Assembly (NCBI RefSeq): GCF_017743865.1 | Contig: NZ_JAGHRJ010000008.1 | Coordinates: 62,001-126,000, forward strand | Direction: 5' to 3' | DNA length: 64,000 bases | Origin: Labrenzia sp. R4_2 | GTDB taxonomy: Bacteria > Pseudomonadota > Alphaproteobacteria > Rhizobiales > Stappiaceae | Shown: in pieces, positions 19,683-62,534 of the stretch | Layout: each line of letters starts with the position of its first letter | Numbering within the stretch: position 1 is the stretch's first letter | The notes under the pieces: generated by a model | What the model was told of the DNA's origin: nothing | Databases searched by the model: none | What the model saw: only the letters and a program-made list of their open reading frames with translations | Made by a program: the position numbers and the translations under genes

Positions 19683-19759
19683 GGCGGGGTAGCTCAGGTG
19701 GTTAGAGCAGCGGAATCATAATCCGCGTGTCGGGGGTTCGAGTCCCTCTCCCGCTACCA
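19683..19759 (+). tRNA. tRNA-Met (CAT), elongator
   Basis: A 77-base cloverleaf with encoded CCA. The acceptor stem GGCGGGG pairs with TCCCGCT with wobble at the ends; the anticodon stem is GCGGA/TCCGC; the anticodon CAT is at 19717-19719; the T-arm contains GGTTCGAGTCC. The body resembles alphaproteobacterial elongator tRNA-Met rather than initiator (paired first base) or tRNA-Ile2, though CAT alone cannot exclude a lysidine-modified tRNA-Ile. Its 3' half is the attachment site for the tandem islands that follow. Confidence 0.93.
19712..19759 (+). repeat. Attachment core, copy 1 (attL of island 1, within tRNA-Met)
   Basis: The final 48 bases of the tRNA recur exactly at 52559-52606, and the final 45 (from 19715) recur at 30868-30912. 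A duplicated tRNA 3' end is the standard product of tyrosine-recombinase integration. Confidence 0.95.
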
Positions 19760-19760
19760 C

Positions 19761-19781
19761 TCAAGCCTTTGATAGGCTTGA
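19761..19781 (+). terminator. Hairpin just after tRNA-Met
   Basis: TCAAGCCT-TTGAT-AGGCTTGA forms a perfect 8-bp stem with a five-base loop, two bases beyond the CCA, followed by a mixed AT tract (TCAATTTCT). It lies in island DNA, so integration supplied it; it could end tRNA transcription or protect the convergent integrase. Confidence 0.5.
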
Positions 19782-19823
19782 TCAATTTCTCAGTCATCAC
19801 TGCTCAATCCTCTCAGTTTGACA

Positions 19824-20912
19824 CTATTCAGTGCCGGGTTTGACAATTTTTGTTCTGCGGCTGTTCACTTCGGCCTCAAAGGCTGTGCCCATCCCAGCAA
19901 CCTTTCGCTTCAAATCTGCCCGCCTCGAGTAGAGACGGGCCATCTCGATTGTCTCCTGTCCAAGGACATCCGCGATTGCGCGTTCGTCGTATCCCATCTC
20001 CCGGAAAATCGTCGCCACGGTATGACGCAAACCGTAGAGCGTAAGTCCGGGTCTGATCTTGCCCAAGCGCTCCAATTTCTGGCGCTCTTTGCGCCAAGAC
20101 GCTCTGAAGCCGGAAACAGTCCAGGGCTGTCCCTTGGAGTTTGCACAGATGGTGAGGGCATCATGTTTGGGAGCCGCTGCTAGAGCCTCCCTGAGTGGGG
20201 AAATGATCGGCAAATAGAGTTCGACACCCGTCTTGCTCCGAGCCGTATCTATGAAGTCACCTTCTATCGCATCCCGGTGCAATGTAAGAGCGTCTTGCGG
20301 CCCGAGCCCGGTAAACATCATCAGTGCAATTGCGGGACGCATATGCTTCGGAGCAGCGTCCAGAACGGCATCTCGCTCACTATCCTGCCAAGGGCGATTG
20401 CTTCGAGGTTCGCCACGCTTGCGCCGAATGTTCGAAATGCCAAGCGCCGGATTGTCTTTTACAAATCCACGATCCTTTCCCCATGAGAACACAAGGGAAA
20501 TAACGGCCTTGACGTAGTTGGCAAACCGTCTGCCTTTCTGTTCTGCTGCCTTGTCGCGCAAACGAACAATAAAGGGACTGGTGAAACGGGTCAGATCGGT
20601 ATCCCGGATCGGATACAGGTAGTCGAATTTGTTCTGGTAGTCGGCACGGGTGCGCGGCGCAAGGTCGGTAAATGCGGAACTTGCACGATACTTTTCGATC
20701 AATGCGCCAAGCGTTCCAGGCTTCGTTCTGTCGGGTTCAAATGCCTTGGTGACACGCTCGCACTCTGCATAAAAGGAAGCAGTTCGCGCCGGATATTTGT
20801 CGAGATCGATCATGACTTTCGAATTGCGGTGCTGGCAACGCTGGCGGTATGGCGGCTTTTTGTCGGTCCAAACACGGAACCCCTTCGGCCACCATTTATT
20901 GACCTTGGGCAT
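19824..20912 (-). CDS. int: Tyrosine recombinase/integrase of island 1
   Basis: A 362-residue site-specific recombinase presumed to integrate and excise the island at tRNA-Met. The N-terminal part has an arm-type domain and a SAM-like core-binding domain (GTLGALIEKYRASSAFTDLAPRTRADYQNK). The catalytic domain shows the lysine (SKTGVEL), box II LYGLRHTVATIF and the tyrosine in ARLYSRRAD. At the usual box I arginine position the sequence is FTGLGPQDAL (around residue 205), with Gly in place of Arg. ATG 20912 directly follows the alpA stop; GTG 20921 is possible. It reads toward the tRNA, ending 65 bases away. Confidence 0.9.
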   Translation of the reverse strand: MPKVNKWWPKGFRVWTDKKPPYRQRCQHRNSKVMIDLDKYPARTASFYAECERVTKAFEPDRTKPGTLGALIEKYRASSAFTDLAPRTRADYQNKFDYLYPIRDTDLTRFTSPFIVRLRDKAAEQKGRRFANYVKAVISLVFSWGKDRGFVKDNPALGISNIRRKRGEPRSNRPWQDSERDAVLDAAPKHMRPAIALMMFTGLGPQDALTLHRDAIEGDFIDTARSKTGVELYLPIISPLREALAAAPKHDALTICANSKGQPWTVSGFRASWRKERQKLERLGKIRPGLTLYGLRHTVATIFREMGYDERAIADVLGQETIEMARLYSRRADLKRKVAGMGTAFEAEVNSRRTKIVKPGTE

Positions 20913-20913
20913 A

Positions 20914-21153
20914 TCAGCCACCCAAGCGATTCAGAATGTCGTCGTCACTGTCGGCCTGGCCTGACTTCAGTTGATCAAGCCACGCATCCAGATCTTGCAC
21001 ATCCCACAGCTTCGACCCGTCCGGGTACTGAACAGGTACAACCGTACAAATACCCTCAAACTTCGAGGCCGGAATACCGCAATAAGCGGCGGCGTCAGGC
21101 TTCTTGAACATCCGAGTGCGCTGTAACTGAAAATTCAGAAATGCTTTTTGCAA
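20914..21153 (-). CDS. AlpA-like helix-turn-helix protein (excisionase/regulator)
   Basis: A 79-residue DNA-binding protein. The core FKKPDAAAYCGIPASKFEGIC-x-VVPVQYPDGSKLWDVQDLDAWLDQL is the winged-helix pattern of AlpA/Xis proteins: R/K-x-P-AA-Y-G, a basic wing and W-D-x-x-DLDAWLD. A TTG at 21153 has GGAG eight bases upstream; an ATG at 21111 gives a 65-residue protein that starts at the domain itself. Directly upstream of int and nearly abutting it. In Gram-negative PICIs AlpA next to int is the conserved activator, so this may be the satellite's induction switch (inference). Confidence 0.8.
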   Translation of the reverse strand: MQKAFLNFQLQRTRMFKKPDAAAYCGIPASKFEGICTVVPVQYPDGSKLWDVQDLDAWLDQLKSGQADSDDDILNRLGG

Positions 21154-21259
21154 TGTTCCATCTCCAATTTAGTGAGCGGTCTTGCCCTCCTAGTCTCCAC
21201 TGCAGGGGAGAGAAGAGCTTGCCGTTATTGGACTGACCGCATCGCCCTCAGGCGGACTA

Positions 21260-21595
21260 CTAGATGGCGTGGCCGTCAATCTTAACGCGGACGGTCGCTG
21301 CCGATCCTCCAGCGTCCTGAATGGCCGTACCAATGCGGAGATTGTCGGTCGCAACCGGCGTGACGGTATCGGTCGCAACATCCCAATAAGCAGGAGCGCC
21401 AAGGGTAAACACCTCGCCACCCGATTTCGTCAGATCGAAGACGCCAACTGTGACCAATTCAAATTCGTCGGCCTCTGCCGCCGTGGTCGCAGCCACGCCG
21501 AACAGATGGTCAACCAGGACACCCGCGCCGGAGATAACCCCGCCAGCGGGAGCCGGAACGGTCACTGCATTACCTGCCTGCACATAATTTCGCAT
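21260..21595 (-). CDS. DUF2190 capsid decoration/cement protein
   Basis: A 111-residue beta-rich protein of the DUF2190 family, thought to stabilise phage capsids. Family features are the N-terminal NYVQAGNAVTVPAPAGGVISG, the internal FELVTVGVFDLTKSGGE and the C-terminal NLRIGTAIQDAGGSAATVRVKID. It is the last gene of the head operon, two bases after the gpW-like gene. Composition matches its neighbours. Confidence 0.85.
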   Translation of the reverse strand: MRNYVQAGNAVTVPAPAGGVISGAGVLVDHLFGVAATTAAEADEFELVTVGVFDLTKSGGEVFTLGAPAYWDVATDTVTPVATDNLRIGTAIQDAGGSAATVRVKIDGHAI

Positions 21596-21598
21596 AGG

Positions 21599-21859
21599 TC
21601 AGATTCCTTTCGTAGAAGTGATGTAAACGGTGGAAATACGCTTCCCGGATTTCTGCGCAGCGCACTGTCTGCGCAGTTCATTGATGCGACTGCGGAGCAT
21701 TGGGGCATCTGTCGATTGCCAAGTAACGGACTCATCTCCGAACTGCACATTCACAGTCATTTCCCCGGCAAGGAAACGGTCCATGACGCCCTCAAGAACC
21801 GCTAGCAACTGGCATGGATCGCTTCGATCCACGCCGTCAAAGATGCTTGCCCGCGCCAT
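21599..21859 (-). CDS. gpW-like head-tail joining protein
   Basis: An 86-residue protein with the gpW pattern: a helical start (LLAVLEGVMDRFLAGE), a beta hairpin (VNVQFGDESVTWQSTD) and a second helix (PMLRSRINELRRQCAAQ). gpW in lambda-type phages fits into the portal vertex and prepares the head for tail joining. Five bases separate it from the capsid gene. Retention of a connector in an element with no tail genes fits a satellite that borrows helper tails. Confidence 0.78.
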   Translation of the reverse strand: MARASIFDGVDRSDPCQLLAVLEGVMDRFLAGEMTVNVQFGDESVTWQSTDAPMLRSRINELRRQCAAQKSGKRISTVYITSTKGI

Positions 21860-21863
21860 CGTC

Positions 21864-23705
21864 TTACGCGCCCGGATTCATGTACCAACCGCGCCAATCG
21901 AGGAATGAGGCACCAAAATCAAGGCGAATCTTGACCTCCACGCCGTCAACCTCAAACCCGGCACGGCTGTCAGTCTGCGGGCCTTCCGAACCTTGAAGAT
22001 AGGCGTATTCCAACCCTTCAACCGTGGCCGGATCGGCCGCGACATACCAGCGGTTCGGATCTTCAAGCCGAGACTCCACAACAAGGTCCAGTTTGCCGCC
22101 GAACACATTCACGTCTTCGGTACGGGTCGGCTGGATCGCTGCCAGGACTTCTTCGGCCTGTGTTTCAAGTTCAGGTGGCACTACAAGGAACTTCGGAGCA
22201 ATGGCAATCGGACGGCCATTGATACCTTTCTGGCGGCGCATCGCGAGGCGAGCTGCCGAAAGGGTTTCCTTGGAGATTGCCCCACCTGTGCCAGCAAGGT
22301 TGCCGTGATCAGCATGGAAAACGGGTTTCTCGTCATCCATGGTCGGGCCAAGACCTGCCGCCTTGACCAACAGGTCCACAAGGAATTGTGCCTCGAACTC
22401 GGCGGATGCAAGACCCAGCTTGCCAGACAGATCATTGAATGCGCCAAGGTCATCATTGATCAGGGCCTTGCGGGACAGGGCGAGGATCGTGCCGTAAGTG
22501 CCGATGGCGTAGGTTTCCATGGCCTCGACAAAACCGGAATACTTGTATTCCCCTTGCTCATTGACCTTCTCCAACTTGGCAAGGTCAGCGGCCTGTACCT
22601 TTGTCTTTGCCCGAAAGTCCTTGTGCGTCGTTTGACGGGCAAGACGCTTCAGCGTTGCAGGAGCTACCTGGTAGGCCGCCCGCAAGGCGCGGTTTGCCGT
22701 GTCGGCAAAGATTGCAGCAAAGTCGCTGGTCGTATGCAGCGCACGGGTAATGATCGTATTTTGGTCAAGCCCCGTAGTGGAAACTCCTGCCCGCTGCAAA
22801 CAATCGCGGGCAATGTCCAGCGTCGTCATGTTGACATAAGCACGTGCGGCCTCTGACAATTTGTGAGACGGGTTAACACGGGTGAAGTACACCGCTTCGC
22901 CCATGCGGGTCACAATTGTTGCCGGATCGTCCAGATGAACCATGTTGCTGGATCGCGCCGTGAGGATCGGTGATGGCCGGGTGCGCCGCTCTTTCAAGGC
23001 ATCGATCGCCGCTGATCGCGCATCCTGTTCACTAGCGCCACGATCGATCTGACCGTTTGCCCATTCATCGCCAAGGTTAAACTCGGTAGCAAGGGCGCGG
23101 ATTTCAGTGTTAACCACTGCTCGCGTCTCAATTTGGGGAGACGCTTGTGGCGGTGTTGTCGCCGGGGGCGCTTCCGGGCCCGCCGGTGCGGGAGTCGTGG
23201 TAGTTCCAGACATTCCATTACCTCTAATTTGCGCGGCAGGGTCGGCACCTACCGGGACTATGCTCACTTCACGTAGCTCCCAAGAAATGGCAGTTTTGAT
23301 CCGCGCGCCCGTGATCGGATCTTTACTCGTGCGCCATTTTTTGGGGTCATAGCCGACAGAAATGTTACGAAAGACACCGGCGCAAATGCCTTGCCAGATG
23401 TCATCACGTTGGGGGGAAACCTGAACCTTGATAATCAGCTTGCCGGACTCAACACGAGCAGCACGAACAACGCCTAGAACGTCGTCCAGAGAGACTTGAC
23501 GATGATTGTTGAGAAGCGGCATGCCATCGAGGCGCGACAAATCAATTGCCTGTTCGGAGATTTCAAGGACTTCAAGAAACGGACCGCCGCCAATGTCCAC
23601 GCGTTCCACAGCCGAGCCTGTTGACGCCACCATTTCGACGGTGCGGTCCTTTTCGACAATGGAAGTCGGGGTAAACCCTGCACGGATATACAAGGGCGCA
23701 TTCAT
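21864..23705 (-). CDS. Fused prohead protease and major capsid protein
   Basis: A 613-residue polyprotein-like fusion. Residues 1-165 are a prohead protease of the HK97/U35 type (LLNNHRQ-x-L-x-D-V-LGVV, with catalytic His in NNH, and WELREVSIVPVGADP at the end). A Pro/Thr/Ala linker (170-195) follows. From about 290 on comes a Mu gpT-like major capsid domain (GTYGTILALSRKALINDDLGAF, KGINGRPIAIAPKFLVVP, VVESRLEDPNRWYVAADP). Self-cleavage between the two parts is expected. The ATG overlaps the portal stop by one base (TAATG). The fusion is known in some phages; here it makes the head operon very compact. Confidence 0.9.
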   Translation of the reverse strand: MNAPLYIRAGFTPTSIVEKDRTVEMVASTGSAVERVDIGGGPFLEVLEISEQAIDLSRLDGMPLLNNHRQVSLDDVLGVVRAARVESGKLIIKVQVSPQRDDIWQGICAGVFRNISVGYDPKKWRTSKDPITGARIKTAISWELREVSIVPVGADPAAQIRGNGMSGTTTTPAPAGPEAPPATTPPQASPQIETRAVVNTEIRALATEFNLGDEWANGQIDRGASEQDARSAAIDALKERRTRPSPILTARSSNMVHLDDPATIVTRMGEAVYFTRVNPSHKLSEAARAYVNMTTLDIARDCLQRAGVSTTGLDQNTIITRALHTTSDFAAIFADTANRALRAAYQVAPATLKRLARQTTHKDFRAKTKVQAADLAKLEKVNEQGEYKYSGFVEAMETYAIGTYGTILALSRKALINDDLGAFNDLSGKLGLASAEFEAQFLVDLLVKAAGLGPTMDDEKPVFHADHGNLAGTGGAISKETLSAARLAMRRQKGINGRPIAIAPKFLVVPPELETQAEEVLAAIQPTRTEDVNVFGGKLDLVVESRLEDPNRWYVAADPATVEGLEYAYLQGSEGPQTDSRAGFEVDGVEVKIRLDFGASFLDWRGWYMNPGA

Positions 23706-25096
23706 TATTCGCTCTCCGTCGATGTATCGGGGGATGGGATAATCTTATGATCTTTGAGGCGTTTGGCATCGGCTGCGATTTCCGCGTCCACGTCTTCAGC
23801 GTCATAACCACGCTCAGCAATGATTTCTGAGCGGCTACGAAGATGGTTTTTCAGGGCTTTCTCTGCCGCTATCGCATCGTTTTTCGGGTCCACCCACGGC
23901 CATGCGGGCGGAAGCCATTTGACCGCATCGAAAGCGGAACGGTCTGCCGTGTAATCACGGGCCGGAATAACCCCCTGCAACACCTGGTACTGAATGAAGG
24001 CTTTCCAGACCGGCCGGCAAAGGCCAAACACCAGCAAGTGGTGCTGGATCGTCTGACAGAAGCGCCGATATTCAAGAAAAGCCTGACGGGCAGAAGAATA
24101 ATTGACGTTAGAATAATCACCCGTCGCCTGTTCGTAGGTCGTATTCGTGCCCGATGCGATGAGCCTGAAAGTTGTCGTTAACAGGTCGCTCGCTCCACCC
24201 TGATCCGGGGTATCGGGGAAGCGGATGTCTTTGCCCGGAGGAAGGTTGATAAGCGCACCCGGCTCGAGACCGGCCGTTAACGTCCCATCTGATTTCTGGC
24301 CGTCATAAGCGGGATTGCCATCCGTATCTGTAATGAACCCGGCATGAAGGGCAGCTACACGGGCACGAACGATCAATGCATCCAGAACTGAATCCAGCTC
24401 TTTCGCCGCTAACAGGACGGACGCGAACCAGCTCAAACCCCGAACTTGACCCGGCACAAGTTGACGGAACAAGTGAATAACTTCACTCGCCGGTATCCGC
24501 ACGGGCGCGAGCGAATAACCGGCGAGTGCATCGCCAGACAGAAGACTCTGGCGAATCCAATAGGCGACCCTGCGACCTGCAGCGTCAAACTCAACGCCCT
24601 GATAAACCCTGCCGCCATGATCAAACATTTGATCCTTTGTACGGTCCAACTGCTCAGGGTGAAGGCGGCGAAGCTGCGGCGCGCCTGTTTCCGGGTGGTA
24701 GGTGAAGACAAAAAGAACTTCACCAAAAACCACCAGATCACGGACGGCAAATTGCTGCAGTCCGTAAAAATCGGTCTGCCCCTCAGCATCCGCCTCGTCA
24801 GTCCACGCCTTCCAGAGCCGTTGCAGAACGCGGCGAACAGCCTCGTCCTCATGTTCGGAACGCGGCTTAATCCCGTCGCCAACCAGATTGGACGCTAGAC
24901 TTTCAGTGATCCGCGCCCCGGTCGGGTTGTTCAAGGTGAAGTGCTGCGCCCGCATGCCGATTGTGGAGGCGCTTGCGTGGATCGTCCCGACGTTGGCGCT
25001 TGCAGGGGCATCCTGCCAACGGCGTCCCCCTCCTGCCGCATCAAGAGAACGGCGAGAAGGGGACGATGAAAAGAGACGGGAAAGGGCGCGGAGCAT
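23705..25096 (-). CDS. Phage portal protein (lambda gpB family)
   Basis: A 463-residue portal subunit forming the dodecameric DNA gateway at the capsid vertex. Lambda-family features include the N-terminal basic stretch, NPTGARITESLASNLVGDGIKP, VFGEVLFVFTYHPETG, ASEVIHLFRQLVPGQVRGLSWFA and NYSSARQAFLEYRRFCQ. Length (460-530) and position between the terminase and capsid genes agree. It overlaps the capsid gene by one base. A five-base gap separates it from the 25102-25806 gene upstream. Confidence 0.93.
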   Translation of the reverse strand: MLRALSRLFSSSPSRRSLDAAGGGRRWQDAPASANVGTIHASASTIGMRAQHFTLNNPTGARITESLASNLVGDGIKPRSEHEDEAVRRVLQRLWKAWTDEADAEGQTDFYGLQQFAVRDLVVFGEVLFVFTYHPETGAPQLRRLHPEQLDRTKDQMFDHGGRVYQGVEFDAAGRRVAYWIRQSLLSGDALAGYSLAPVRIPASEVIHLFRQLVPGQVRGLSWFASVLLAAKELDSVLDALIVRARVAALHAGFITDTDGNPAYDGQKSDGTLTAGLEPGALINLPPGKDIRFPDTPDQGGASDLLTTTFRLIASGTNTTYEQATGDYSNVNYSSARQAFLEYRRFCQTIQHHLLVFGLCRPVWKAFIQYQVLQGVIPARDYTADRSAFDAVKWLPPAWPWVDPKNDAIAAEKALKNHLRSRSEIIAERGYDAEDVDAEIAADAKRLKDHKIIPSPDTSTESE

Positions 25097-25101
25097 CTGG
25101 T

Positions 25102-25806
25102 TTATGCCCCCCGGATTGCCTGCGCGTCCAAGCGAAGTTTCAATCGCTGATCAACCGCTGAGAGCAGATCCGTAAGGTTCAAGATCGGCATATCCGAGCT
25201 TTCCTCCCGACGCATCGCTTCAGTTTCCGCGTTTGCTGCATATTGGGTTTTCAATTTCACGATGCGCTGATGGGCCTCTTTGAGAGTCATATCAGGGATC
25301 AACTCAACATCAGCCGCGCCAGCCTTATGCGCTGCGTTATCGTAGATAAGGTAGATGGGCTGATCCTCATCACGGCTGATGAAATCATCACCAAGGTAAT
25401 AAGACGGAAAGTCTACAATGCGAGTCGCATCATGCGGCGTATGCGGCGGGAAGTCGTTTTCTTCAAAATCGCTGCCTCCGAACCAGATAATGTTGCGATT
25501 TTCTTGGGTATCGGCATTTAGCTTCTTGCATCCATACTCGTTGCCTTGAAGCAAGTTATGCAGCCCCCAAACCACCGAACGAGCTAAGTGGCGATCACGA
25601 TATGAGCCAATAGTCATATGTATCGCCATCTCCAAAATGTGGGCGTACCGGTATTCGCCACCCCCCGGACCAGGAGCGGTCTTGCGCGGAAAGAAGAGAT
25701 GGCCGCCGCGTGTCAGATCGCGACGGAAATTCGAAAACGCGCCGTGCTGGAGCGCATAGGCGCAATCTTTTGCAGAGTAGGTTGCCGTGAGGATCTCGGG
25801 ATACAT
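25102..25806 (-). CDS. Unknown island protein with MerR-like N-terminal pattern
   Basis: A 234-residue protein directly upstream of the portal gene. Residues 5-65 (TATYSAKDCAYALQHGAFSNFRRD, then FFPR and GGEYRYAHILEMAI) resemble a winged helix of MerR type, where a helix pair is followed by a wing and an R-Y-x2-x-I-L segment. The C-terminal 40 residues are helical and basic (LSAVDQRLKLRLDAQAIRGA). ATG 25806 has GGAG upstream, better than ATG 25818 or TTG 25848. It could be a regulator of the head operon; no established family name can be given. Confidence 0.65.
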   Translation of the reverse strand: MYPEILTATYSAKDCAYALQHGAFSNFRRDLTRGGHLFFPRKTAPGPGGGEYRYAHILEMAIHMTIGSYRDRHLARSVVWGLHNLLQGNEYGCKKLNADTQENRNIIWFGGSDFEENDFPPHTPHDATRIVDFPSYYLGDDFISRDEDQPIYLIYDNAAHKAGAADVELIPDMTLKEAHQRIVKLKTQYAANAETEAMRREESSDMPILNLTDLLSAVDQRLKLRLDAQAIRGA

Positions 25807-26018
25807 ATCGCTCTCCATTTGAATAATAATCTTTACATTTCTGTACAAATTATATGTCGGAGTCGCCGAATTGTAAATAAAATTCTATAACGCATTGATA
25901 AAACAATGATTTTCGCCTGAAATGTATCGTGGGATGGCGAACCGATTCAGTAATGAGCACGCTCTGAAAGAAAGGCGCACCCCCAATGAGGTGCTGCCTC
26001 AACTTTGAACTGCCGTCT

Positions 26019-26243
26019 CTATTTAGGAGATGTTCGCGATGCTTCATGGACCTCGACACATACCGAACCGGCGTCCTTTGCGATGCTTTCCAGCAAGTCT
26101 ATTAGTGTCGCCGCTGAATGCTGTGTGCGGAGGCGCTCTTTAGCGCAACCATCTATGGGCACGTCCATAACCATTTGGAGCGCATGCAAGATCCCCTCGA
26201 TCTGGCCGATCTTAAATGAGATTTTTTCAATTTCGTCTTTCAT
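26019..26243 (-). CDS. Small hypothetical protein, divergent from the repressor gene
   Basis: A 74-residue helical protein (MKDEIEKISFKIGQIEGILHAL at the start) with three Cys and no recognised domain. The second ATG (26243) is preferred because AGGAG then has a six-base spacing. It is read away from the XRE-type gene at 26382, so the 138-base interval between them is a shared control region. Possibly a satellite regulatory protein; unknown. Confidence 0.6.
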   Translation of the reverse strand: MKDEIEKISFKIGQIEGILHALQMVMDVPIDGCAKERLRTQHSAATLIDLLESIAKDAGSVCVEVHEASRTSPK

Positions 26244-26381
26244 CATGAGCTCCTTAGTTTCCCCATTTCGCGAAGGACGAAATGGGTGCGGATAAGATGA
26301 TCGTGTGATATGAATTAATCACAGCGTTATCATTTACACTTAAATAATAACGTCAAGCTAAAATTATAACGGTGCTATAAA

Positions 26382-26609
26382 ATGATCGCTATTCAATGCA
26401 AAATGGCTCGTACCGCTCTCGGATTAGGTGTAAGAGAGCTGGCAGATCTAGCCAAAGTAGCGCCCGCTACTATTTCGCGGCTTGAAAGAGGTGAAGAGTT
26501 AAAACCACGAACAGTCGATGCAATACGAACCACATTAGAGAATGAGGGGATAGTATTTATCGAAGAAAACGGTGGTGGCCCCGGTGTTAGAATGAGGAGA
26601 AATATATGA
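26382..26609 (+). CDS. XRE-family helix-turn-helix regulator
   Basis: A 75-residue Cro/C1-type protein: AIQCKMARTALGLGVRELADLAKVAPATISRLERGEELKPRTVDAIRTTLENEGIVF is a complete HTH_3 domain, and the tail GGGPGVRMR is typical of short XRE regulators next to toxin or phage genes. Its stop overlaps the ATG of the next gene (ATGA). It lies in the AT-rich accessory block on the strand opposite to the head genes, so it may control either the block itself or the satellite switch. Confidence 0.85.
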   Translation: MIAIQCKMARTALGLGVRELADLAKVAPATISRLERGEELKPRTVDAIRTTLENEGIVFIEENGGGPGVRMRRNI

Positions 26610-26893
26610 CACCTATCGAAGAAACTTTCATCCGCCTAACGATGCTATTAGACGAGCCGAAACAACACCGCGATAGACAGGCAATCAAAGATCACTTTGA
26701 TACGCTGGTCGACTACGCAAGAAATGATGACGAGAAACGTGCCGCTTACGAATTTAAAGCCATGGCTATGAACCATATCGACAGTGATGGAATAGATCCG
26801 CCTGAGTTCGTTGAGGAAAAGCGCGTCAGAGCTCTTGAGGCACTAACGGTTTTTTCAAGAATCATTGAGTCTAGCAAACACCCAGGAGGTTGA
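26606..26893 (+). CDS. Hypothetical protein cotranscribed with the XRE regulator
   Basis: A 95-residue helical acidic protein (TPIEETFIRLTMLLDEPKQH at the start), translationally coupled to the XRE gene through ATGA. No domain recognised. The codon usage and AT content differ from the high-GC head genes around the block, pointing to separate acquisition. Confidence 0.65.
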   Translation: MTPIEETFIRLTMLLDEPKQHRDRQAIKDHFDTLVDYARNDDEKRAAYEFKAMAMNHIDSDGIDPPEFVEEKRVRALEALTVFSRIIESSKHPGG

Positions 26894-26991
26894 GGCTTTA
26901 GCTATTTTTAGCGATCTCAGATTATCAGAAATCGTTTTACGGATAATAGTATTTAACGGTTAGAAGTTGTTGAGAATTTGAAGGCAAATAG

Positions 26992-27462
26992 ATGATAGAA
27001 TTTGTTAAGAACAACTCAGAAATAATACTTGCGATTGCCGCACTGTTTAATGTGATCGCAGCAGGATTTGCCGCCTTCTCAACATACTTCGGACCGAGAA
27101 AAGCTGCTATTGCCGCAGAAAAACTTCGTCATCAGTCAGAAGCAGACACGCGTATTCGCCTTCAAAAGGAAGAGATATTTACTCGACTGATCGAATACTC
27201 AAACAAAATGGACGATCAAGAATTTTTGGGCGCGTTAAATCTTGTTCGAATTGTTTTCAGAGGAAATGATAATATAAAAAGAAAAATAAATGACCTTTAT
27301 GACGCCCTCTCAGATAAGAACATAAAGCCCAACGAACAAAATGTAGCAATGAACAACAAGTACATCTCATTACTAAAGGAAATTGCACTCGAAATAAAAT
27401 GGCATGATTATATTGAGTGGGATCGAGTATTAGATGGATATGGAAAACGCAAAATCATGTAA
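26992..27462 (+). CDS. Membrane-anchored hypothetical protein (DUF6680-like)
   Basis: A 156-residue protein with an N-terminal transmembrane helix (IILAIAALFNVIAAGFAAFSTYF), a basic stretch after it (GPRKAAIAAEKLRH), then a helical cytoplasmic part with KEEIFTRLIEYSNKMDDQEFLGALNLVRIVFRG and IKRKINDLYDAL. That pattern of a membrane anchor plus short helical bundle recalls DUF6680 proteins, but this is a tentative match. It is very AT-rich. It converges with the terminase gene three bases on. Likely cargo of the satellite rather than a structural protein. Confidence 0.6.
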   Translation: MIEFVKNNSEIILAIAALFNVIAAGFAAFSTYFGPRKAAIAAEKLRHQSEADTRIRLQKEEIFTRLIEYSNKMDDQEFLGALNLVRIVFRGNDNIKRKINDLYDALSDKNIKPNEQNVAMNNKYISLLKEIALEIKWHDYIEWDRVLDGYGKRKIM

Positions 27463-27464
27463 AT

Positions 27465-29252
27465 TTATTTCAACCAACTTGAGCGAATTATATTTTTTTC
27501 ATCGACGTGCGCCAACTGAATTCTGCCACATACGGCCGCCAAACGCTCATCCCAATTCACGTTAACAATCTGCCGGGCAGCGAAGGCGTAGACAACACAG
27601 TCCAAAGCTTCTGCGTCCCTTCCGGGAATGCGTTCAAAACGCCGTTGCGGCTGCCCGCGATTGTAGCGCAACACCGAACGTTCACTAGCCAACTGTTCGA
27701 ACCAGACCGGATCAAGCGTATCGGAAAAATGGATGGTGCTTCCTTGTGTAAGGCGCGTCGTCAGGTGAGCCTTGATGCTGTCCACACCCACAATCCAGAG
27801 CCATCCCCCTCGCTTGATCCCGGATTTTGATTTTTCGATCCATGGCCGATCCCCTCGGACTCCCTTGATTGCTAGTATTCGGCGATTGGAACGCGGGAAA
27901 CAGAACCGGTAAACATCTTCCATGGTCTGCCCGTCACTACTATCGACAGCGGCCGCTTCGATCCCGATCTTGCCGCCAAGCGGATGCGCGAACCTCGCCT
28001 TGAGAAGGCTGTCCAGTTCCGCCCAGGTATCGGAGTTATCCGGCAAGCCCCAAATGACGGCATGGCCAAGGACGTAAGCATGCCCGTCCCGGTTCCATCC
28101 CACATACGTCAATTCCAGCCGGTCGTGCTGCACGTCAACGCCAACGGTGATAACCAGAACATCTTCGGGAACGGAAACGAGCGAGAACGGCTTGGCGCGG
28201 CCTGCAAGCGCCGCTTCGTCCAGTTCCTGCCCTTCCATGCGCCACCCCTGTCCAAGGATCGTGTTGACGAAAACTTGCAGTCCTTCAGGGTCGTTTTTCG
28301 CAGCAAGGAATTCTTTCGCCAACGCGGCCCACGAGGCTTTTGCCAAGGGCGAAATAAGCGCATTCATTCGGAAGCCTGCATGACCGGTGATTTCCGGTTT
28401 AGTCGCTCGCCAGCGACCCGCATTGACCATTTGCCGCTTGTGTTTTTCCTCGACCACAGAACCACATGAAGGGCAGACGTAGTGTGCTCCGTCCGGTCCC
28501 CCCTCAGGCCAATGGATATCCTTCCATGTGATTTCGTGGAAGTCGCCACACTCAGGACATGGGACCTCGAAAACCCTTTGATCCGATTGCGCATAGGCTC
28601 GAAGGACGTGCGAAGTATCTTCAAGAACCGGTGTGCTACCCATGATGATCTTGCGGTTCGGGAAACTCAGTGTCCGCTTTTCCGCGAGAAGAACCGGACT
28701 TCCCTCCGCGCTGGATTCCATTCCGTCCGCTTCGTCGACAAACAGAATGCGCACATTGTGCCGGCGCAAGTTTCTGGGAGCCTTCGCAGCAACCACCTTG
28801 AGCGAACCACCGGGAAACTTACGGGATAAGAGAGTACTGCGACTGTTCGGGTCGCTGTCGGCAACCAGAAGCCCGGCGAGCTCTGGCGAGGCGGAGAAGA
28901 TCGGCTCGATATCGGAGACTACGTAGTCCCGGCAATCGGCCTCTGTCGGCAGTAGAGACAGGATCGGCGAAGGATCATTTGCAACGTAGCTGGCAAGCGC
29001 CCCGGTTAGAAGGGTGGAGAACCCGACCCGTACCGGTTTGACCAACGTAACCCTTTCGATGCCCGGATCGCCAATCGCATCGGCAATGGCCTTCTGAAAC
29101 GGCCACAGTTGCACTGGACCTGGGACGCTGGAAACATCACTCGGAAGCCGGACATTTGCCTCGATCCATTCCGAAAGCTTAAGGTTCGGCGGTGGCAGAA
29201 GGGACGCCAACGCCGTGCGGCGAACAGACTTGATGCATGCAAACTCAGTCAT
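27465..29252 (-). CDS. Terminase large subunit (gpA family)
   Basis: A 595-residue packaging ATPase/nuclease. It begins with the gpA-type MSEW-like region (KLSEWIEANVRLP), has a Walker A-like VKPVRVGFSTLL and Walker B ILFVDEADGM, a zinc-finger segment (CPECGDFHEITW and CPSCGSVV) and a C-terminal nuclease domain (VGVDVQHDRLELTYVGW, KGVRGDRPW, RDAEALDCVVYAFAAR). The ATG at 29252 overlaps the small-subunit stop and has GGAGG nine bases upstream. Powering DNA entry into the portal, it gives the element independent packaging. Confidence 0.93.
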   Translation of the reverse strand: MTEFACIKSVRRTALASLLPPPNLKLSEWIEANVRLPSDVSSVPGPVQLWPFQKAIADAIGDPGIERVTLVKPVRVGFSTLLTGALASYVANDPSPILSLLPTEADCRDYVVSDIEPIFSASPELAGLLVADSDPNSRSTLLSRKFPGGSLKVVAAKAPRNLRRHNVRILFVDEADGMESSAEGSPVLLAEKRTLSFPNRKIIMGSTPVLEDTSHVLRAYAQSDQRVFEVPCPECGDFHEITWKDIHWPEGGPDGAHYVCPSCGSVVEEKHKRQMVNAGRWRATKPEITGHAGFRMNALISPLAKASWAALAKEFLAAKNDPEGLQVFVNTILGQGWRMEGQELDEAALAGRAKPFSLVSVPEDVLVITVGVDVQHDRLELTYVGWNRDGHAYVLGHAVIWGLPDNSDTWAELDSLLKARFAHPLGGKIGIEAAAVDSSDGQTMEDVYRFCFPRSNRRILAIKGVRGDRPWIEKSKSGIKRGGWLWIVGVDSIKAHLTTRLTQGSTIHFSDTLDPVWFEQLASERSVLRYNRGQPQRRFERIPGRDAEALDCVVYAFAARQIVNVNWDERLAAVCGRIQLAHVDEKNIIRSSWLK

Positions 29253-29745
29253 TGCCAAGATCCTCCAGACAGGCTCGAATCTCTGCATCGAGCGAGGCGA
29301 TTTCCTTTGCGCAAAGGTGCGGGTGTTGCGACCGATAGCGTTCCGGGATGGCGAGAAGCCGTGAACGGATTACCCGCAGGATCTCAAGCCATTCCCGTTC
29401 CACGTCCTTTGCTGAAAGCAAATCACGGCGAAGCATGGCGTTCTTGAGGGCCGCATGGTCGGCCTGTTCCCGAACAAGGCGGGCGCGTTCATCGGCAACC
29501 GAGGTTTGAGCAGCAAGGGGCAAATCGGTTTGTTTGCTTTGAGCGGCCGAGCGTTTCGCATCAATGTTGTCCTGTATCCAGAGGGTGCCGCGCGCGACAT
29601 CGATCCGGCCATCGGCTTCGACCGGTAGGCCATCGCGGATCATCTGGGAGACGCGACCAGGGGAAACCTTCGCCAAACGGGCAAAGTCCGCCTTTTTCAG
29701 GGTTTTCGGAGCCTGTATCCCGCCTATGTCATGCATCCCTTGCAT
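29245..29745 (-). CDS. Terminase small subunit / DNA recognition protein (Nu1-like)
   Basis: A 166-residue protein with an N-terminal HTH (TLKKADFARLAKVSPGRVSQMIRDGLPVEADGRIDVARG) of the Nu1/gpNu1 winged-helix type and a helical C-terminal part (ADHAALKNAMLRRDLLSAKDVEREW) matching the region that contacts the large subunit. It should recognise the packaging site of the element's own DNA. ATG 29745 is used; ATG 29736 is also possible. It overlaps the large subunit by eight bases. Confidence 0.85.
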   Translation of the reverse strand: MQGMHDIGGIQAPKTLKKADFARLAKVSPGRVSQMIRDGLPVEADGRIDVARGTLWIQDNIDAKRSAAQSKQTDLPLAAQTSVADERARLVREQADHAALKNAMLRRDLLSAKDVEREWLEILRVIRSRLLAIPERYRSQHPHLCAKEIASLDAEIRACLEDLGND

Positions 29746-29835
29746 ATCTAACCTATTGTTCTGATTGACGTTTAGCTATCAATTTTAACTCAGAGGGTGA
29801 AATCTCGGGCGTTTCATAACCCGCAATCATCTGCG

Positions 29836-30627
29836 CTAGGAAGGACCCAATGCGGCTGGGCAATCGCCCTCGGCTCTTAGATGTTCAATGTCCTTCTTGA
29901 AAAACATGCATCCATGCTGGCCATGGTGATCAAAGATCGTAGTGGGACTGCCCGCCTGGTCCGGAGAGATCTTTGCCAAGCAAGGGAAACGAGGATCGTC
30001 AACTGAGATAAACTCGCCTTCACACTCAGAGCTGCCCCGTGCTTTCCAAAGCGAATATTGAGTTGTCCACGGAGGCGGATGCTTGCGAAGAGCTGGCCTG
30101 TAAGGCACCTGCCGCTCGGCCTCTCGCGCGGGCGCACGCGTTTGTTTTTTTATATTTATTTCTTTTTCTTTATTTTGAGTGACACCGGCGTCACCTTTTT
30201 TGTGCAGCGTTTGGCATGTTTTTGTGCTGCATTTGTCACCTTTTTGGTCCTTTGAAGTGACACCGGTGTCACGTTTTTCGGCGGTGTTTTTGCAACCGCT
30301 CGTATGGACAAAAACGTATTGGTTATTGCGTCCTCGCCCCCTATTTCGATCCACTTCAATATACCCTTCACGCTCCAAGGCATGTATCGCTCTTATGACC
30401 GTTCGCGGGCTCTTGCCGGTCTCTTGAGCAAGTGTGTCGATGTTGGGCCAGGCTATTCCGGTGACGGAGAAGAAGAACTTCAGAAAGACAACAGCGACAA
30501 CCTTGTCGCCATCCGTCAGATTACGGTCGCGCCCAACCTTTCCGATCCACTCCACCTTGTCTGAGTATTGAACCTTGTGGTGGTCGGCTGACATCTTTGC
30601 CCCGGGAAAATGAGCAACGTTGCTCAT
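29836..30627 (-). CDS. Replication initiator-like winged-helix protein
   Basis: A 263-residue protein. Residues 20-105 form a phage Rep-type winged helix (LTDGDKVVAVVFLKFFF, then IAWPNIDTLAQETGKSPRTVIRAIHALEREGYIEVDRNRGRGRNNQYVF), as seen in helix-turn-helix replication proteins of phages and satellites. The middle is Lys-rich and low-complexity; the C-terminus is unrecognised and has a His/Cys-containing patch (DHHGQHGC). A GTG/ATG-rich hairpin-prone stretch lies within the gene around 30180-30280. It overlaps the upstream 82-residue gene by ATGA. A separate helicase or primase is absent. Confidence 0.75.
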   Translation of the reverse strand: MSNVAHFPGAKMSADHHKVQYSDKVEWIGKVGRDRNLTDGDKVVAVVFLKFFFSVTGIAWPNIDTLAQETGKSPRTVIRAIHALEREGYIEVDRNRGRGRNNQYVFVHTSGCKNTAEKRDTGVTSKDQKGDKCSTKTCQTLHKKGDAGVTQNKEKEINIKKQTRAPAREAERQVPYRPALRKHPPPWTTQYSLWKARGSSECEGEFISVDDPRFPCLAKISPDQAGSPTTIFDHHGQHGCMFFKKDIEHLRAEGDCPAALGPS

Positions 30628-30872
30628 GCGGCCCCCTCGAGCTTGTCGGCCAGGACAAGAAGCTGGTAAACGACTTCGCTCTTCTCTGAAAAGATAGCCT
30701 CTGGATCGGTCCTTCTGCCGTTTCCAATGCGCTCAACTTGATGTGCAAGGTCACGCACTTCCTCGGCTACGAGGTTTGACAAATCAGTTGTAAGTGCTTG
30801 ATTTCCGTTAGATGGTTTGACAGGAGAAGCAGAGCTAAAGCATTGCATTTGCGGCAAAAACTCATGCATCAT
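30624..30872 (-). CDS. Small hypothetical protein whose start codon lies in the attachment core
   Basis: An 82-residue helical protein with no known domain (VAEEVRDLAHQVERIGNGRRTDPEAIFSEKSEVVYQLLVLADKLE). The ATGA overlap with the replication gene supports its reality. Its ATG pair at 30872/30869 falls inside the tRNA-derived repeat: the ATG at 30872 is the complement of the tRNA anticodon CAT. No good ribosome binding site precedes it; a later ATG at 30848 is an alternative. Confidence 0.5.
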   Translation of the reverse strand: MMHEFLPQMQCFSSASPVKPSNGNQALTTDLSNLVAEEVRDLAHQVERIGNGRRTDPEAIFSEKSEVVYQLLVLADKLEGAA

Positions 30873-30912
30873 AATCCGCGTGTCGGGGGTTCGAGTCCCT
30901 CTCCCGCTACCA
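30868..30912 (+). repeat. Attachment core, copy 2 (attR of island 1 / attL of island 2)
   Basis: Forty-five bases identical to the tRNA-Met 3' end including CCA, without an acceptor 5' half, so not a functional tRNA. It ends island 1 and begins island 2. Confidence 0.95.
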
Positions 30913-52558: not shown

Positions 52559-52606
52559 GGAATCATAATCCGCGTGTCGGGGGTTCGAGTCCCTCTCCCG
52601 CTACCA
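52559..52606 (+). repeat. Attachment core, copy 3 (attR of island 2 / attL of island 3)
   Basis: Forty-eight bases identical to the tRNA-Met 3' end, including CCA. No upstream tRNA half is present. The adjoining 52607-52839 is AT-rich with nothing recognisable. Confidence 0.95.
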
Positions 52607-52839
52607 TTTTTCTCATATATATCAATAACTTAAAGATCCGGCTGTGTCGCTTTCCGTACAAAAATGCGTAGCACACCTGTAGCGCAGTTTTACTATCGCA
52701 TTTTCTTCGATTTGATCGTAAGTTCACTGTGTTCAACACAGTATTCTTGAACACCGTTGCTCAACAGTCTTTCATATCATCTATGCAACGCCAGCATGCC
52801 AGATCAGGTTGTTTCAGAAGCCTCAGCTAGTCTTTAATC

Positions 52840-54417
52840 ATGCCAAAGCTCGCACCAAATACGGTTACCCTACTCGACGGCGAAGTTCGCTTGTTTCGCC
52901 GTAATAACAGCAGGGCATGGCAAGCGACTTTCAAATTAGGTGGACGTTGGGTTCGCATTACTAAAAAGCACAAGATATTGGCTGACGCGAAGGAGCGTGC
53001 ACGCGAGCTGTACTACGAGTATCGTGCGCGCGATAAGAATGGCCTTCCCATAATCAGCAAACGCTTTGCAGACGTAGCTAAGGTTGTCATCTCAGAAATG
53101 GATCGCCAGCTAGAAGCAGGTGTCGGCAAGCGAAGCTTCCGCGACTACAAAATCGTTCTTGAGAAATATCTCATTCCATATTTTGGCGATAAGTTCATTA
53201 CGTCGATCAATTATGAGGAACTGCAAAAGTTTGCGAAGTGGCGGGCTGATAAGATGGGGCGTGAGCCGAAAGCCTCTACGCTCAACACCCATAATTCGGC
53301 GCTAAATCGCGTTTTTTACGAAGCTGTAGCGCATGGATACATCAATCGAACGCATGTGCCTGTTCTTATAAACAAGGGGCGCGACAGCGAACGCAGACCG
53401 GATTTTCGGCGTGATGAGTACGCCAAAATGATCCGAGTATTGCCGTCCTGGATCGATGCAGGGCGAAAAGGCAAATCAAGGGACATGCGGCACCTACTGC
53501 GAGACTATATCTTAGTCCTTGCAAATACTGGTATCCGACACGGCACTGAAGCCGAGAATCTCCGTTGGAAACACGTCCATCTATTTGAGGAAGGTGGCAG
53601 GACTTATTTGGAAATGCACCTTAATGGAAAGACTGGCGAGCGCGACATTATATGTCGGGCAAACACCATTGCTTTTTTAAAACGGATACAATCACGCTGC
53701 CCAGATATAGCGAACATGTCATTTGAAGCTCTGCTCAAAAAACAGGTTGATGAACCTGTATTCCGTTTGCCGGATGGAACAGTAACGGAAAACCTTCGGC
53801 AACCATTCAAAAAACTGATGGAACACACCGGTCTTTTGAAGTGCCCACGCACCGGACAATCGCGCACTCTTTATAGCCTGCGCCATACCTACGCGACTTT
53901 CGCGCTTTTGAACGACGGCATGGATGTGCACACGCTAGCAATCCAAATGGGCAACAGTATTCAGATGATTGAACGCCACTACAGTCATCTAACGCCACGC
54001 CTTCGCAAGGAGATACTCACCGGGCCGCGACATGACCTGACTGAAGAAGAATATCGAAAACGATTTGATGTAAGTTCGCTGACAGTGGAAAAAGCCGACT
54101 TGGAAAAGTCTGTCACGATGGCTGATGAGAGCGACACCGATCTACCCGAAGATCCAGTTGATCACGAGCCAGATCATTTCGACGATCAATCGTATGACTA
54201 CAAAGAAAACAAGGAGCTGGAAACCAATGTTCAATCAGCTGGAATGCGAGCGTTTGAGCTCTTTGAACGAGGCAAGCTGTCAGAAACGGCGCTCCTAGCA
54301 GCCGTAGGTGCCAATCGCGCTGGTTATGAACCTGAAGAAGCTTTTTCCTGCAGAGCATTAGACGCATTTGAGAAACAGCTATTAAGCGAGAAAACGCTAA
54401 TTAAGATCCTTGGTTGA
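52840..54417 (+). CDS. Large tyrosine recombinase (integrase of island 3)
   Basis: A 525-residue recombinase, longer than typical integrases by an acidic C-terminal extension (about 400-525). The catalytic residues seen are Arg in LANTGIRHGTEAENLRW, Lys in LNGKTGERD, box II LYSLRHTYATF and the tyrosine in ERHYSHLTPR. The N-terminal arm-binding region (NTVTLLDGEVRLFRRNNSRAW) fits phage-like integrases. Its position 233 bases right of att copy 3 makes it the probable enzyme for the third island. Confidence 0.88.
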   Translation: MPKLAPNTVTLLDGEVRLFRRNNSRAWQATFKLGGRWVRITKKHKILADAKERARELYYEYRARDKNGLPIISKRFADVAKVVISEMDRQLEAGVGKRSFRDYKIVLEKYLIPYFGDKFITSINYEELQKFAKWRADKMGREPKASTLNTHNSALNRVFYEAVAHGYINRTHVPVLINKGRDSERRPDFRRDEYAKMIRVLPSWIDAGRKGKSRDMRHLLRDYILVLANTGIRHGTEAENLRWKHVHLFEEGGRTYLEMHLNGKTGERDIICRANTIAFLKRIQSRCPDIANMSFEALLKKQVDEPVFRLPDGTVTENLRQPFKKLMEHTGLLKCPRTGQSRTLYSLRHTYATFALLNDGMDVHTLAIQMGNSIQMIERHYSHLTPRLRKEILTGPRHDLTEEEYRKRFDVSSLTVEKADLEKSVTMADESDTDLPEDPVDHEPDHFDDQSYDYKENKELETNVQSAGMRAFELFERGKLSETALLAAVGANRAGYEPEEAFSCRALDAFEKQLLSEKTLIKILG

Positions 54418-54465
54418 TCAGCCTGGCGTTGTGATAAAAAACTTCACTTTGTAGCAATTCGCCAC

Positions 54466-55049
54466 CTATTGCACCTCTGGCACCTTTGCGCCTCCCCGCC
54501 TCAAAATCGCAGGGCATCCGAACAAACTGTAAAACTGCCGTTGGCTTACATCGACTCCGGGTTCTTTCACTACTTCAGCCATGCGAGAATGCACATAGCG
54601 ATCAAGTGGCAACCGGAATTCCTCTTGGATATGGGCAAGCACGAACAAATCCCTACGCTGCCAGTCACTTTCAGAGCTATCCCTCCCGGAACGGTAGCCC
54701 CACGGAGTCACGTTCATGAGCTATCATAATTTGGAAGCGGGCCCAACACCTTGCTTTACCGCGATAAATGATGACCTAATTTGCTTCTTTCTGCAAAGAA
54801 CTGAGGCCATTTTTTAGCACATCCTATCCTCCTGGAGCAGGCGGTTATTTCGTAGTAGCTCTGATATCTCCTTTTCAAGCTCAGATTGTGTGGCAGTTTT
54901 CTCAAGATCGCGACGGTCCTGATGTATCCAATGGTTTTGCGTATAGAAACCAACACCAAGGTCTTGGGCGACTTGCCTATGCGACAAGCCGCTGGTCAGC
55001 GTTATCCGAACTGCTTCTGCGCGAAACTCTGCGCCGTGACGTGATGAAG
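54466..55049 (-). pseudogene. Decayed IS3-family transposase (orfA and orfB remnants)
   Basis: On the minus strand, 55049 to about 54840 translates as an IS3-type OrfA: GAEFRAEAVRITLTSGLSH, then LGVGFYTQNHW and ELEKEISELLRNNRLL. A frameshift and stop near 54830 separate it from KKWPQFFAER, the usual end of OrfA. An OrfB-like fragment follows (54717-54466, RRDLFVLAHIQEEFRLPLDR and RMAEVVKEPGVDVSQRQF), ending before the catalytic DDE core. No complete terminal repeats were found. The element is inactive and truncated. Confidence 0.7.
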
Positions 55050-55368
55050 ATTCCCCGTGTCAAAATACGAAGTCTTAGGAGCAGCGCAAATCCGCGACAG
55101 GTCCAATCTATTCATCGGCTTGGAATGAGACGAAGGTACCTTTATGTTCGCTTGAGCTGCTTAGGAACATCGTCTTTGAGATCCATTAGCAATTAAATTT
55201 CTGAATCAGCAATTCTCTCCACCGAGACAACCTTACCGTCATCGAGATTACCACTGACGAAGTGAAGCGCTTCAAATAAACTGTATGGTCTCTCGCGTTC
55301 GTCAACTGGTTGTGCTTGGTTATCGCCTTGTCTGTGTTTGCAATGCTGTTGATAGTGTGGAAATTTTG

Positions 55369-60081: not shown

Positions 60082-60515
60082 ATTACCGCTGCTGGCTTTC
60101 TGAGGTGGATCCTCATATCGTTCACATCTTTTTTCGCCGCCGTTTTTCCTAGTCTGCATTGTTGCTTATCGGGTGGCAAAGCAAGTTACTATCGAAAATA
60201 TTTGCGCAATCTATGTTTCAGGACGAAATTCTTTTATACTTACTCAAGTCTTACTACGCGTGGGCATGTCTTTTTCCTTAGTAATTGTTCGCTTTCATGG
60301 ATGGACCAACGTGTCAGTTTCACCAATGCGCAACAGTATTTAAAGGGTTTTTCCAAAAGGGCTGGAAGAACGTTGAGAGCTAGTACGTTTTGTGCATCCA
60401 GGAGGCTGTCTAGCCTGTTTTCTCTGTCCCCGGCATCGCCTATGGTCGCCGAACAACAGAAAAAGTGAGTGAATGCGGCGAATGCATCTGGATTTTGAAT
60501 TGAATGTAATCGCAC
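60082..60515. other. Gap between the NTPase and PIN-like genes
   Basis: A 434-base convergent interval. The frames in it have no ribosome binding site or recognisable product, and no clear terminator was found. It may contain remnants of an earlier reading frame. Confidence 0.4.
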
Positions 60516-61733: not shown

Positions 61734-61967
61734 TATGAAACCTCTGCTTGGATGTATTCGATCTTCACGGGTACTCGCACATCTGCCTTTGTTGACTTGG
61801 CAGTGACAGTCAAAGTGGGCTCGCTCCGGTCATTTGCTGGGGTATGCACTAGCGCCCGCGTGGGGCTGAAAGCTATCGCAAAAATCTCATAACCACTGTC
61901 GGCTTAGTTGTGCATTTTCCCAAGGGCCAGCTGGCGGCTCCTAAACCATCTCCGTTCTATTTCGTCA

Positions 61968-62534
61968 CTACAACAATTCCACGGCTTGCTTCAGCTGATC
62001 AGCATTCACATCAATATATCTCTGCGTGGTTGAGATATGACAGTGCCCAGCCAACTCGGCAAGCAACCGGACACCAACACCTTTATTTGCAAGTCGTGTG
62101 ATGTAGGTACGGCGTCCGCTGTGACTGCTGGCATCTTTGAGCCCACAAGCTCGATAAATTTCAAGAAACAACTGACACATGGTGTTTGCTGAAAAGTGCC
62201 CGCCTTTCTGGCTTGGAAAAAGCGGCTTCAATGGCTCGCCCAAATCCAACACGGCAGCATAGTCCGCAAGCGCACGCCTTAAGCGCACGTTTAAATACAC
62301 AGTGCGCGTTTTTCCGCCTTTACTCTGCGCAGCTGCAAGCATGAACTGTTCGCGCACAGCACCTTTCTCGACGTACACATCACTTATTTTGAGAGCGGCA
62401 ATTTCTTTTGCCCGAAGACCGGCCATGAAGCTGACTAGCACAATCGTTTCATCGCGCAGTGGATGACGCCGACTACGGCAATAGTGTAAAACTCGTCGAA
62501 GTTGGGTGTCATTGAGCGTTTGAGCCTGACGCAT
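61968..62534 (-). CDS. Lone tyrosine recombinase without N-terminal domain
   Basis: A 188-residue protein consisting of the catalytic domain only: Arg in FMAGLRAKEIAAL, Lys in SKGGKTRTVYL, SSHSGRRTYITRLA, AGHCHISTTQRY and the nucleophile in RYIDVNADQLK. The core-binding domain is absent, as in small XerC-like recombinases on plasmids and phages. It may be complete, using another protein for site binding, or a conserved orphan. No other integrase is adjacent. Confidence 0.85.
   Translation of the reverse strand: MRQAQTLNDTQLRRVLHYCRSRRHPLRDETIVLVSFMAGLRAKEIAALKISDVYVEKGAVREQFMLAAAQSKGGKTRTVYLNVRLRRALADYAAVLDLGEPLKPLFPSQKGGHFSANTMCQLFLEIYRACGLKDASSHSGRRTYITRLANKGVGVRLLAELAGHCHISTTQRYIDVNADQLKQAVELL

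Follow-up and report, generated by a model that had tools for sequence, protein, structure and literature searches.

A probable capsid-forming phage satellite in a Labrenzia tRNA-Met gene, and its alphaproteobacterial relatives

Capsid-forming phage-inducible chromosomal islands (cf-PICIs) are defined by a set of their own genes: capsid, protease, portal, head-tail connector, and the terminase subunits TerS and TerL (PMC10690885). In the accessible passages of the literature they have a reported mean size of 14 kb, carry an HNH endonuclease in the packaging module, and are called widely distributed across Bacteria (PMC10690885); the AlpA regulator is named there for PICIs, outside the cf-PICI definition. 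The passage of one paper that gives the main cf-PICI hosts names no Alphaproteobacteria. This report concerns an 11,153-bp element at positions 19760-30912 of a 64,000-nucleotide stretch (the window) from the alphaproteobacterium Labrenzia sp. R4_2, corresponding to C25:62001-126000 in a 5.66-Mb genome of 26 contigs. The element is very likely an integrative, capsid-forming phage satellite.

Two other groups of head-encoding satellites are described, again from passages of the sources. MulchRoom and MiniFlayer, satellites of Streptomyces phages, resemble the Labrenzia element in having their own head and packaging genes. Both are described as lacking significant homology to cf-PICIs (PMC10690885), and they form an independent precedent for satellites with their own heads. 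However, they are actinobacterial, with direct terminal repeats, virulent helpers, and no primase homologue, whereas the Labrenzia element is integrated at a tRNA gene and carries replication genes. The cf-PISP satellite-plasmids of Vibrio crassostreae are likewise tail-less and capsid-encoding, and of similar size (TG54, 15.8 kb). They differ in being episomal and without integrase, and their PF05065 capsid clusters with gammaproteobacterial cf-PICIs (PMC13230959). No description of such elements in Alphaproteobacteria was found in the literature, covered as titles and abstracts, with subscription papers mostly outside reach.

All members of the cf-PICI set (capsid, protease, portal, connector, TerS, TerL) are present in the element. 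Like the cf-PICI EcCIEDL933, it is site-specific, satellite-sized, and without tail genes. Could it be a genuine cf-PICI like those already published, novel in its host alone? The strategy is the same, down to an integrase and an AlpA-like gene, and both its size, near the reported mean, and the reported breadth of cf-PICI distribution would fit. However, its capsid reports only PF25209 and PF10124 at E≤0.001, not PF05065 (HK97 Phage_capsid). The 900 published cf-PICIs placed in one PF05065 tree were themselves gathered with PF05065, so that others are possible (PMC13230959). Further differences from cf-PICIs are a protease fused to the capsid; a gpA-type terminase and a lambda-type portal; O-like or helicase-primase replication proteins; MerR and HTH regulators; and alphaproteobacterial hosts. 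No HNH endonuclease matched either, in all 15 open reading frames (ORFs) assigned to the element with PHROGs and 11 of the 15 with Pfam. The published-kind explanation is thus unlikely. One cf-PICI capsid is reported, in a passage of its source, to group by structure with the Rhodobacter gene transfer agent (GTA; PMC12846349).

Judged by its genes, the element would act like a cf-PICI yet misses two features, the PF05065 capsid and the HNH endonuclease; Pfam family and published descriptions set it apart. A sequence-only reading of the same DNA had assigned it to the cf-PICI concept. The tail-less, capsid-encoding satellite survives from that assignment; membership among published cf-PICIs lacks support. 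The element probably belongs to a new, independently evolved alphaproteobacterial family of capsid-forming satellites.

Integration site and gene content

The element lies between exact 45-bp copies of the 3' end of a tRNA-Met (CAT) gene (19683..19759, plus strand; ARAGORN), which is the integration target and remains intact. The left and right copies, attL (19715..19759, plus strand) and attR (30868..30912, plus strand), are identical over 45 bp and 11,153 bp apart. A chance origin of these repeats was rejected: their 43-base core has three copies in the window, against a mean of 0.00 in 100 shuffles. The 860-bp stretch from mnmA to tRNA-Met was matched in 45 of 45 genomes of the genus, the weakest by the tRNA part alone. 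The nearest relative over this stretch (G051, 97%) carries a clean empty site: the satellite is absent from its tRNA-Met locus as compared with the window, and the 45-base att sequence runs directly into sequence equal to the window from 30913, with 222 of 238 flank bases identical. The 11.15-kb element with exact 45-base tRNA repeats proposed from sequence alone is thereby borne out. Its sequence is already catalogued, as an 11,168-bp viral contig in IMG/VR. Further copies of the repeat occur at window positions 52564-52606 and, elsewhere in the genome, at C25:151366 and C21:28400; the element therefore heads a tandem array of islands at tRNA-Met.

The head genes form an operon on the minus strand. 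Behind its first gene come the lambda-family portal (23705..25096, 463 aa; PF05136, phrog_21); the prohead protease/major capsid fusion (21864..23705, 613 aa; phrog_4523, 8e-192; PF25209 and PF10124); the gpW-type head-tail adaptor Ad1 (21599..21859, 86 aa; phrog_17985, 1.5e-14; phrog_75, 1.6e-6); and the cement, or decoration, protein (21260..21595, 111 aa; phrog_122, PF09956). An AlpA/excisionase-like small protein (20914..21153, 79 aa) and a tyrosine integrase (19824..20921, 365 aa; phrog_1, 1.5e-38; PF00589) follow, also on the minus strand. The same strand carries the gpA-type TerL (27465..29288, 607 aa; phrog_15, 3.7e-193; PF05876, PF20454), TerS (29245..29745, 166 aa; phrog_57, 1.6e-27), and an O-like replication initiation protein (29836..30627, 263 aa; phrog_678, 9.9e-15; PF13730).

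These matches agree with the functions assigned earlier to the integrase, replication initiator, both terminases, portal, protease/capsid fusion, connector, and decoration protein. The AlpA-like assignment is tentative: it is drawn from sequence pattern and position, with homologues of 50-61% at the same place in close relatives, and no Pfam model matched at E≤0.1. None of the 15 ORFs matched a tail, holin, or endolysin family in PHROGs, in line with the earlier statement that tail, lysis, and tape-measure genes are lacking. The element thus combines site-specific integration, with integrase and direct repeats, with the lack of a full-virion gene set, as is characteristic of satellites; the tail tube, tape measure, baseplate or tip, and lysis genes of a tailed prophage were not found.

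This suggests a model for the life cycle of the element. The integrase and the AlpA-like excisionase would move it into and out of the tRNA-Met 3' end, and the O-like protein would start replication. TerS and TerL, both its own, would cut concatemers at the cos-like site of the element and load a small head made of its own portal, protease/capsid fusion, and cement protein. Ad1 would then prepare the neck, letting a helper phage add its tail. Lysis, and probably the rest of the neck proteins, would come from the helper too. In this scheme we infer helper induction, the small size of the head, tail borrowing, and transfer.

Ahead of the portal, the first gene of the head operon (ORF of 248 aa; 25102..25806, minus strand, 234 aa from the family start) encodes a MerR-type regulator by predicted fold. 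Foldseek gave no match at E≤0.001; in a second structural look, limited to the families in its list, the CvkR fold was closest. CvkR is a regulator of a CRISPR-associated transposon. In relatives, the proteins of 160-200 aa encoded ahead of the portal show weak MerR matches, and their alignment to the window protein is too poor for a homology call.

Five further ORFs complete the set: a divergent HTH regulator (26382..26609, plus strand; phrog_8, 9.4e-5), 35-75% identical in relatives; an accessory DUF6680 protein (26992..27462, plus strand, 156 aa; PF20385, 3.8e-10); and small ORFs at 26019..26246 (minus strand, 75 aa; in PHROGs at E 0.066 only), 26606..26893 (plus strand, 95 aa), and 30624..30872 (minus strand, 82 aa; several relatives at 38-56%).

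A family distinct from its tailed relatives

A search with the capsid protein scored 7,999 candidates, of which 1,359 were relatives. Those at the top (70-74%) include one in Stappia indica and two copies in Breoghania, both genera belonging to the host's own bacterial family, and three of the nine best lie on contigs of 10.7-12.4 kb. Scanning added 24 loci from genome contigs and, from viral contigs, 80 of 112 by capsid and 80 of 140 by portal. Megablast against phage records gave no match. The existence of the family rules out an isolated oddity.

Hosts include Stappia, Breoghania, Pleomorphomonas, Oceanicaulis, and others, in several host families. Counting the window, seven tRNA types serve as sites: tRNA-Phe in S. 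indica SN13-18, S. taiwanensis, and S. indica SBBC 49; Arg in Stappia sp. WLB 29 and Oceanicaulis; Phe and Arg in Breoghania; His and Gln in Pleomorphomonas; Asn in Roseiarcaceae; Phe in one metagenomic contig; and Ser in each of two further genomes. Fifteen members span 10,520-12,368 bp (mean 11,530, sd 525); 14 of these lengths, the window's included, come from delimiting repeats, three of them short (17, 17, and 22 bp), and one from circular overlap. The latter belongs to IMGVR 3300010392_003325, whose 127-bp identical ends are those expected of an 11,371-bp circle. It is the sole contig with such ends among 158 viral-contig loci tested, many of them cut, and is apparently the circular form of a family member.

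Closer relatives mostly keep the gene order of the window. Gene calls in 18 compared elements found the portal and capsid in all 18, TerS and TerL in 17, the cement protein in 16, and a 71-aa Ad1-like gene in 15, while 14 have integrases of a single cluster; ORFs in relatives were picked by codon usage, which missed or shortened some small genes. L044 and L046 carry other integrases. In the pair from Stappia WLB 29 and SBBC 49 (L041, L043), terS, terL, portal, and capsid share 94-99%, whereas the integrases are 29% identical and the sites differ (tRNA-Arg versus tRNA-Phe), a pattern that reads as integrase exchange. In the Pleomorphomonas-type satellite L059, the protease is fused to the portal (~634 aa) and not to the capsid protein (~461 aa), as checked by profile; judged by size, L056 and L077 have the same fusion.

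The head genes also have tailed homologues. RcOceanus-like Rhodobacter phages and prophages of the family Stappiaceae share the terminase, portal, protease/capsid fusion, and cement, but they are full tailed phages, and their capsids are 39-42% identical to that of the element in the capsid tree. This homology leaves room for a defective prophage, in which a lambda-like tailed phage would have lately lost its tail and lysis modules and left one end behind. A full-length prophage relative had been named beforehand as the finding that would overturn the satellite. Tailed relatives exist, but in the tree they reach capsid identities of only 31-42% and branch apart, and the nearest relatives of the window element show no tail gene. 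That scan used 45 queries, drawn from the tail, neck, and lysis proteins of four annotated phages and from tail proteins of this genome and three loci. With these queries, each of seven related prophages (L149, L150, L154, L157-L160) shows 5-8 tail or neck genes, whereas the 14 other members of measured length, in several host families and at seven tRNA types if the window's is counted, show none.

In a capsid tree of 96 rows, the window falls in a 13-row clade (support 100/100) in which every row is labelled as a satellite. A 35-row group takes in every one of the 24 satellite rows, together with eight unknown and three tape-measure rows and none of the 17 tailed rows; the labels (SAT, TAIL, TMPSAT) were set by hand, some TAIL on one tail match and some SAT without repeats, and 52 rows are unknown. 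Identical sequences were entered once. Left out were L010-L039, with short flanks (some were refetched larger); copies of the window (L001, L025, L064); duplicates (L156, L081, L089, L090, L114, L122); and matches below 300 residues, among them the tailed L154, L139, and L057.

Purifying selection acts on the head genes: in computable pairs, dN/dS is 0-0.31 for terS, terL, portal, and capsid and reaches 0.39 for cement; dS exceeds 1.4 in the pair that includes the window. Gene order differs as well. In annotated tailed relatives, cement, neck, and tail genes stand in a row, whereas in most satellites the AlpA-like gene and the integrase come after cement. The gpW-type gene of the satellites follows the capsid gene; three of the four annotated phages, where it is named, have it before the portal. 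RcOceanus is of the latter type, with FII, Z, U, tube, and tape measure following. A truncated prophage was rejected on the tail query scan, the capsid tree, and dN/dS, and a recent deletion is highly improbable.

Packaging site, helper candidates, and tape measures

Upstream of terS lies a putative cos-like site (29806..29848, minus strand) that overlaps the 3' end of the replication gene and reads GGGTCCTTC, 16 nt, CGGG, 10 nt, CCCG. The same motif, GGGTCCTTC followed by a CGGG...CCCG dyad, is common to the family at this position (nine elements compared), L044 lacking that form. Its 21 occurrences in 29 loci (467,902 bases) are all at this place, and eight loci have no exact copy. Within the 1,100 nt ahead of terL, the motif is present in 25 of 35 satellite-like loci, versus 3 of 36 tailed or longer phage loci; both sets were hand-chosen. 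The loci are not all independent, since the first set holds several near-copies, including the copy of the window itself, and the second has long phage contigs without a proven tail. We read the motif as a putative cos: the terminase is of the gpA type, which is that of cos phages such as lambda, and the layout recalls lambda cos. Together with near-constant length, tRNA repeats, selected head genes, and the empty site, it makes a tail-less satellite well supported.

Might the head genes serve another end, hindering a resident prophage or forming a domesticated GTA-like head, with no packaging of a satellite genome? The element is known from its sequence, and a P2-like contractile tail module lies on the same contig, ~5 kb past the fourth att copy. 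However, the element is site-specific, patchy in distribution, and in one metagenome apparently circular, and it encodes both terminase subunits itself, alongside a conserved cos-like site. A mobile element of this sort has little probability.

That tail module (C25:156396-163047; L168:11396-18047) encodes gpD, X, U, tape measure, tube, and a sheath fragment, and runs off the contig. Its sheath was found once in the genome. It is a helper candidate for the satellite. The P2-like tail genes of this module were not found beside tRNA-Met in regions of ~6-15 kb from 10 relatives (11 loci).

Several observations weigh against the satellite reading. No helper phage for the element was identified. 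Of 11 satellite-bearing genomes, a hand-listed set, 5 have P2-type gpD, and it is no commoner there than in the other genomes of the family (29 of 76; Fisher p 0.74). This co-occurrence result says little either way, since a known cf-PICI was, in the accessible passage of its source, mobilised at detectable frequency by 0 of 17 resident prophages (PMC11389934). An FII-like head-completion gene was not recognised in the element, so that joining to a tail needs neck parts of the helper. L155 has no recognised integrase, and in L044 the integrase lies on the opposite strand. Several long phage contigs likewise gave no match with the 45 queries, which may miss divergent tail genes. The 35-row group has support of 85/77, and the satellite label needs at least four changes on firm branches; a single origin of the satellites is therefore not proved.

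A tape measure gene is present in four types of element related to the family: L084/L208 (784 aa, with a neck protein); L080/L277 with L081 (1,116 aa, with a neck protein); L075 (749 aa; terminase not found on the contig); and L220 (553 aa). No tube, sheath, or baseplate genes were recognised on the four types, all of them contigs and perhaps cut. The L075 tape measure has no relative but itself among the viral contigs. In L208, the protein ahead of the tape measure is chaperone-like and matches the tail protein family phrog_166 (5e-6).

The last 84 residues of the L208 tape measure are 73% shared with the 839-aa tape measure of a 52,517-bp contig (L210) from the same metagenome, 3300048575; the same C-terminal match extends to a 74,453-bp contig from another metagenome. 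The 52.5-kb phage has P2-type tail families: sheath phrog_23, tube phrog_55, phrog_166, tape measure phrog_28, U phrog_76, and D phrog_52. These largely equal the tail PHROGs of the P2-like module in the Labrenzia genome. The phage is a helper candidate for L208. The single alignment suggests that the C-terminus is a docking match to the helper, as if the L208 ruler were adapted for docking on the baseplate of a P2-like phage. Tentatively, and at slightly less than an even chance, the family is an independent one, and several lineages within and around it add their own tape measure while the helper gives tube, sheath, and baseplate.

Neighboring islands and implications

The other islands of the array differ in content. 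The second (window 30913-52606) encodes an SMC/RecF-like ATPase, a cytochrome bd oxidase, and a SLAC1 family channel, with an integrase close to the next att-repeat copy. The third, from window 52607-64000 onward to C25:151410, has an integrase-like protein at 52840, another integrase at 61968, and, at 55285-60081, a 1,598-aa AAA protein with WD40 repeats, perhaps STAND-like and with a defence role. At C21:26580-28447, a tRNA-Met repeat copy is preceded by an integrase 96% identical to the one beside the distal repeat of G051.

If the satellite is what it appears to be, the combination of own head and borrowed tail evolved a further time, out of a different phage head module, and such satellites exist in a bacterial class outside the main cf-PICI hosts named in the accessible passages. 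The family is defined by host strains, att sites, and a cos-like site, and thus offers material for testing tail borrowing, helper range, and small-head assembly. Its tape-measure-bearing relatives provide an entry to the question of how tail parts divide into those a satellite has to encode itself and those it can take from another phage.

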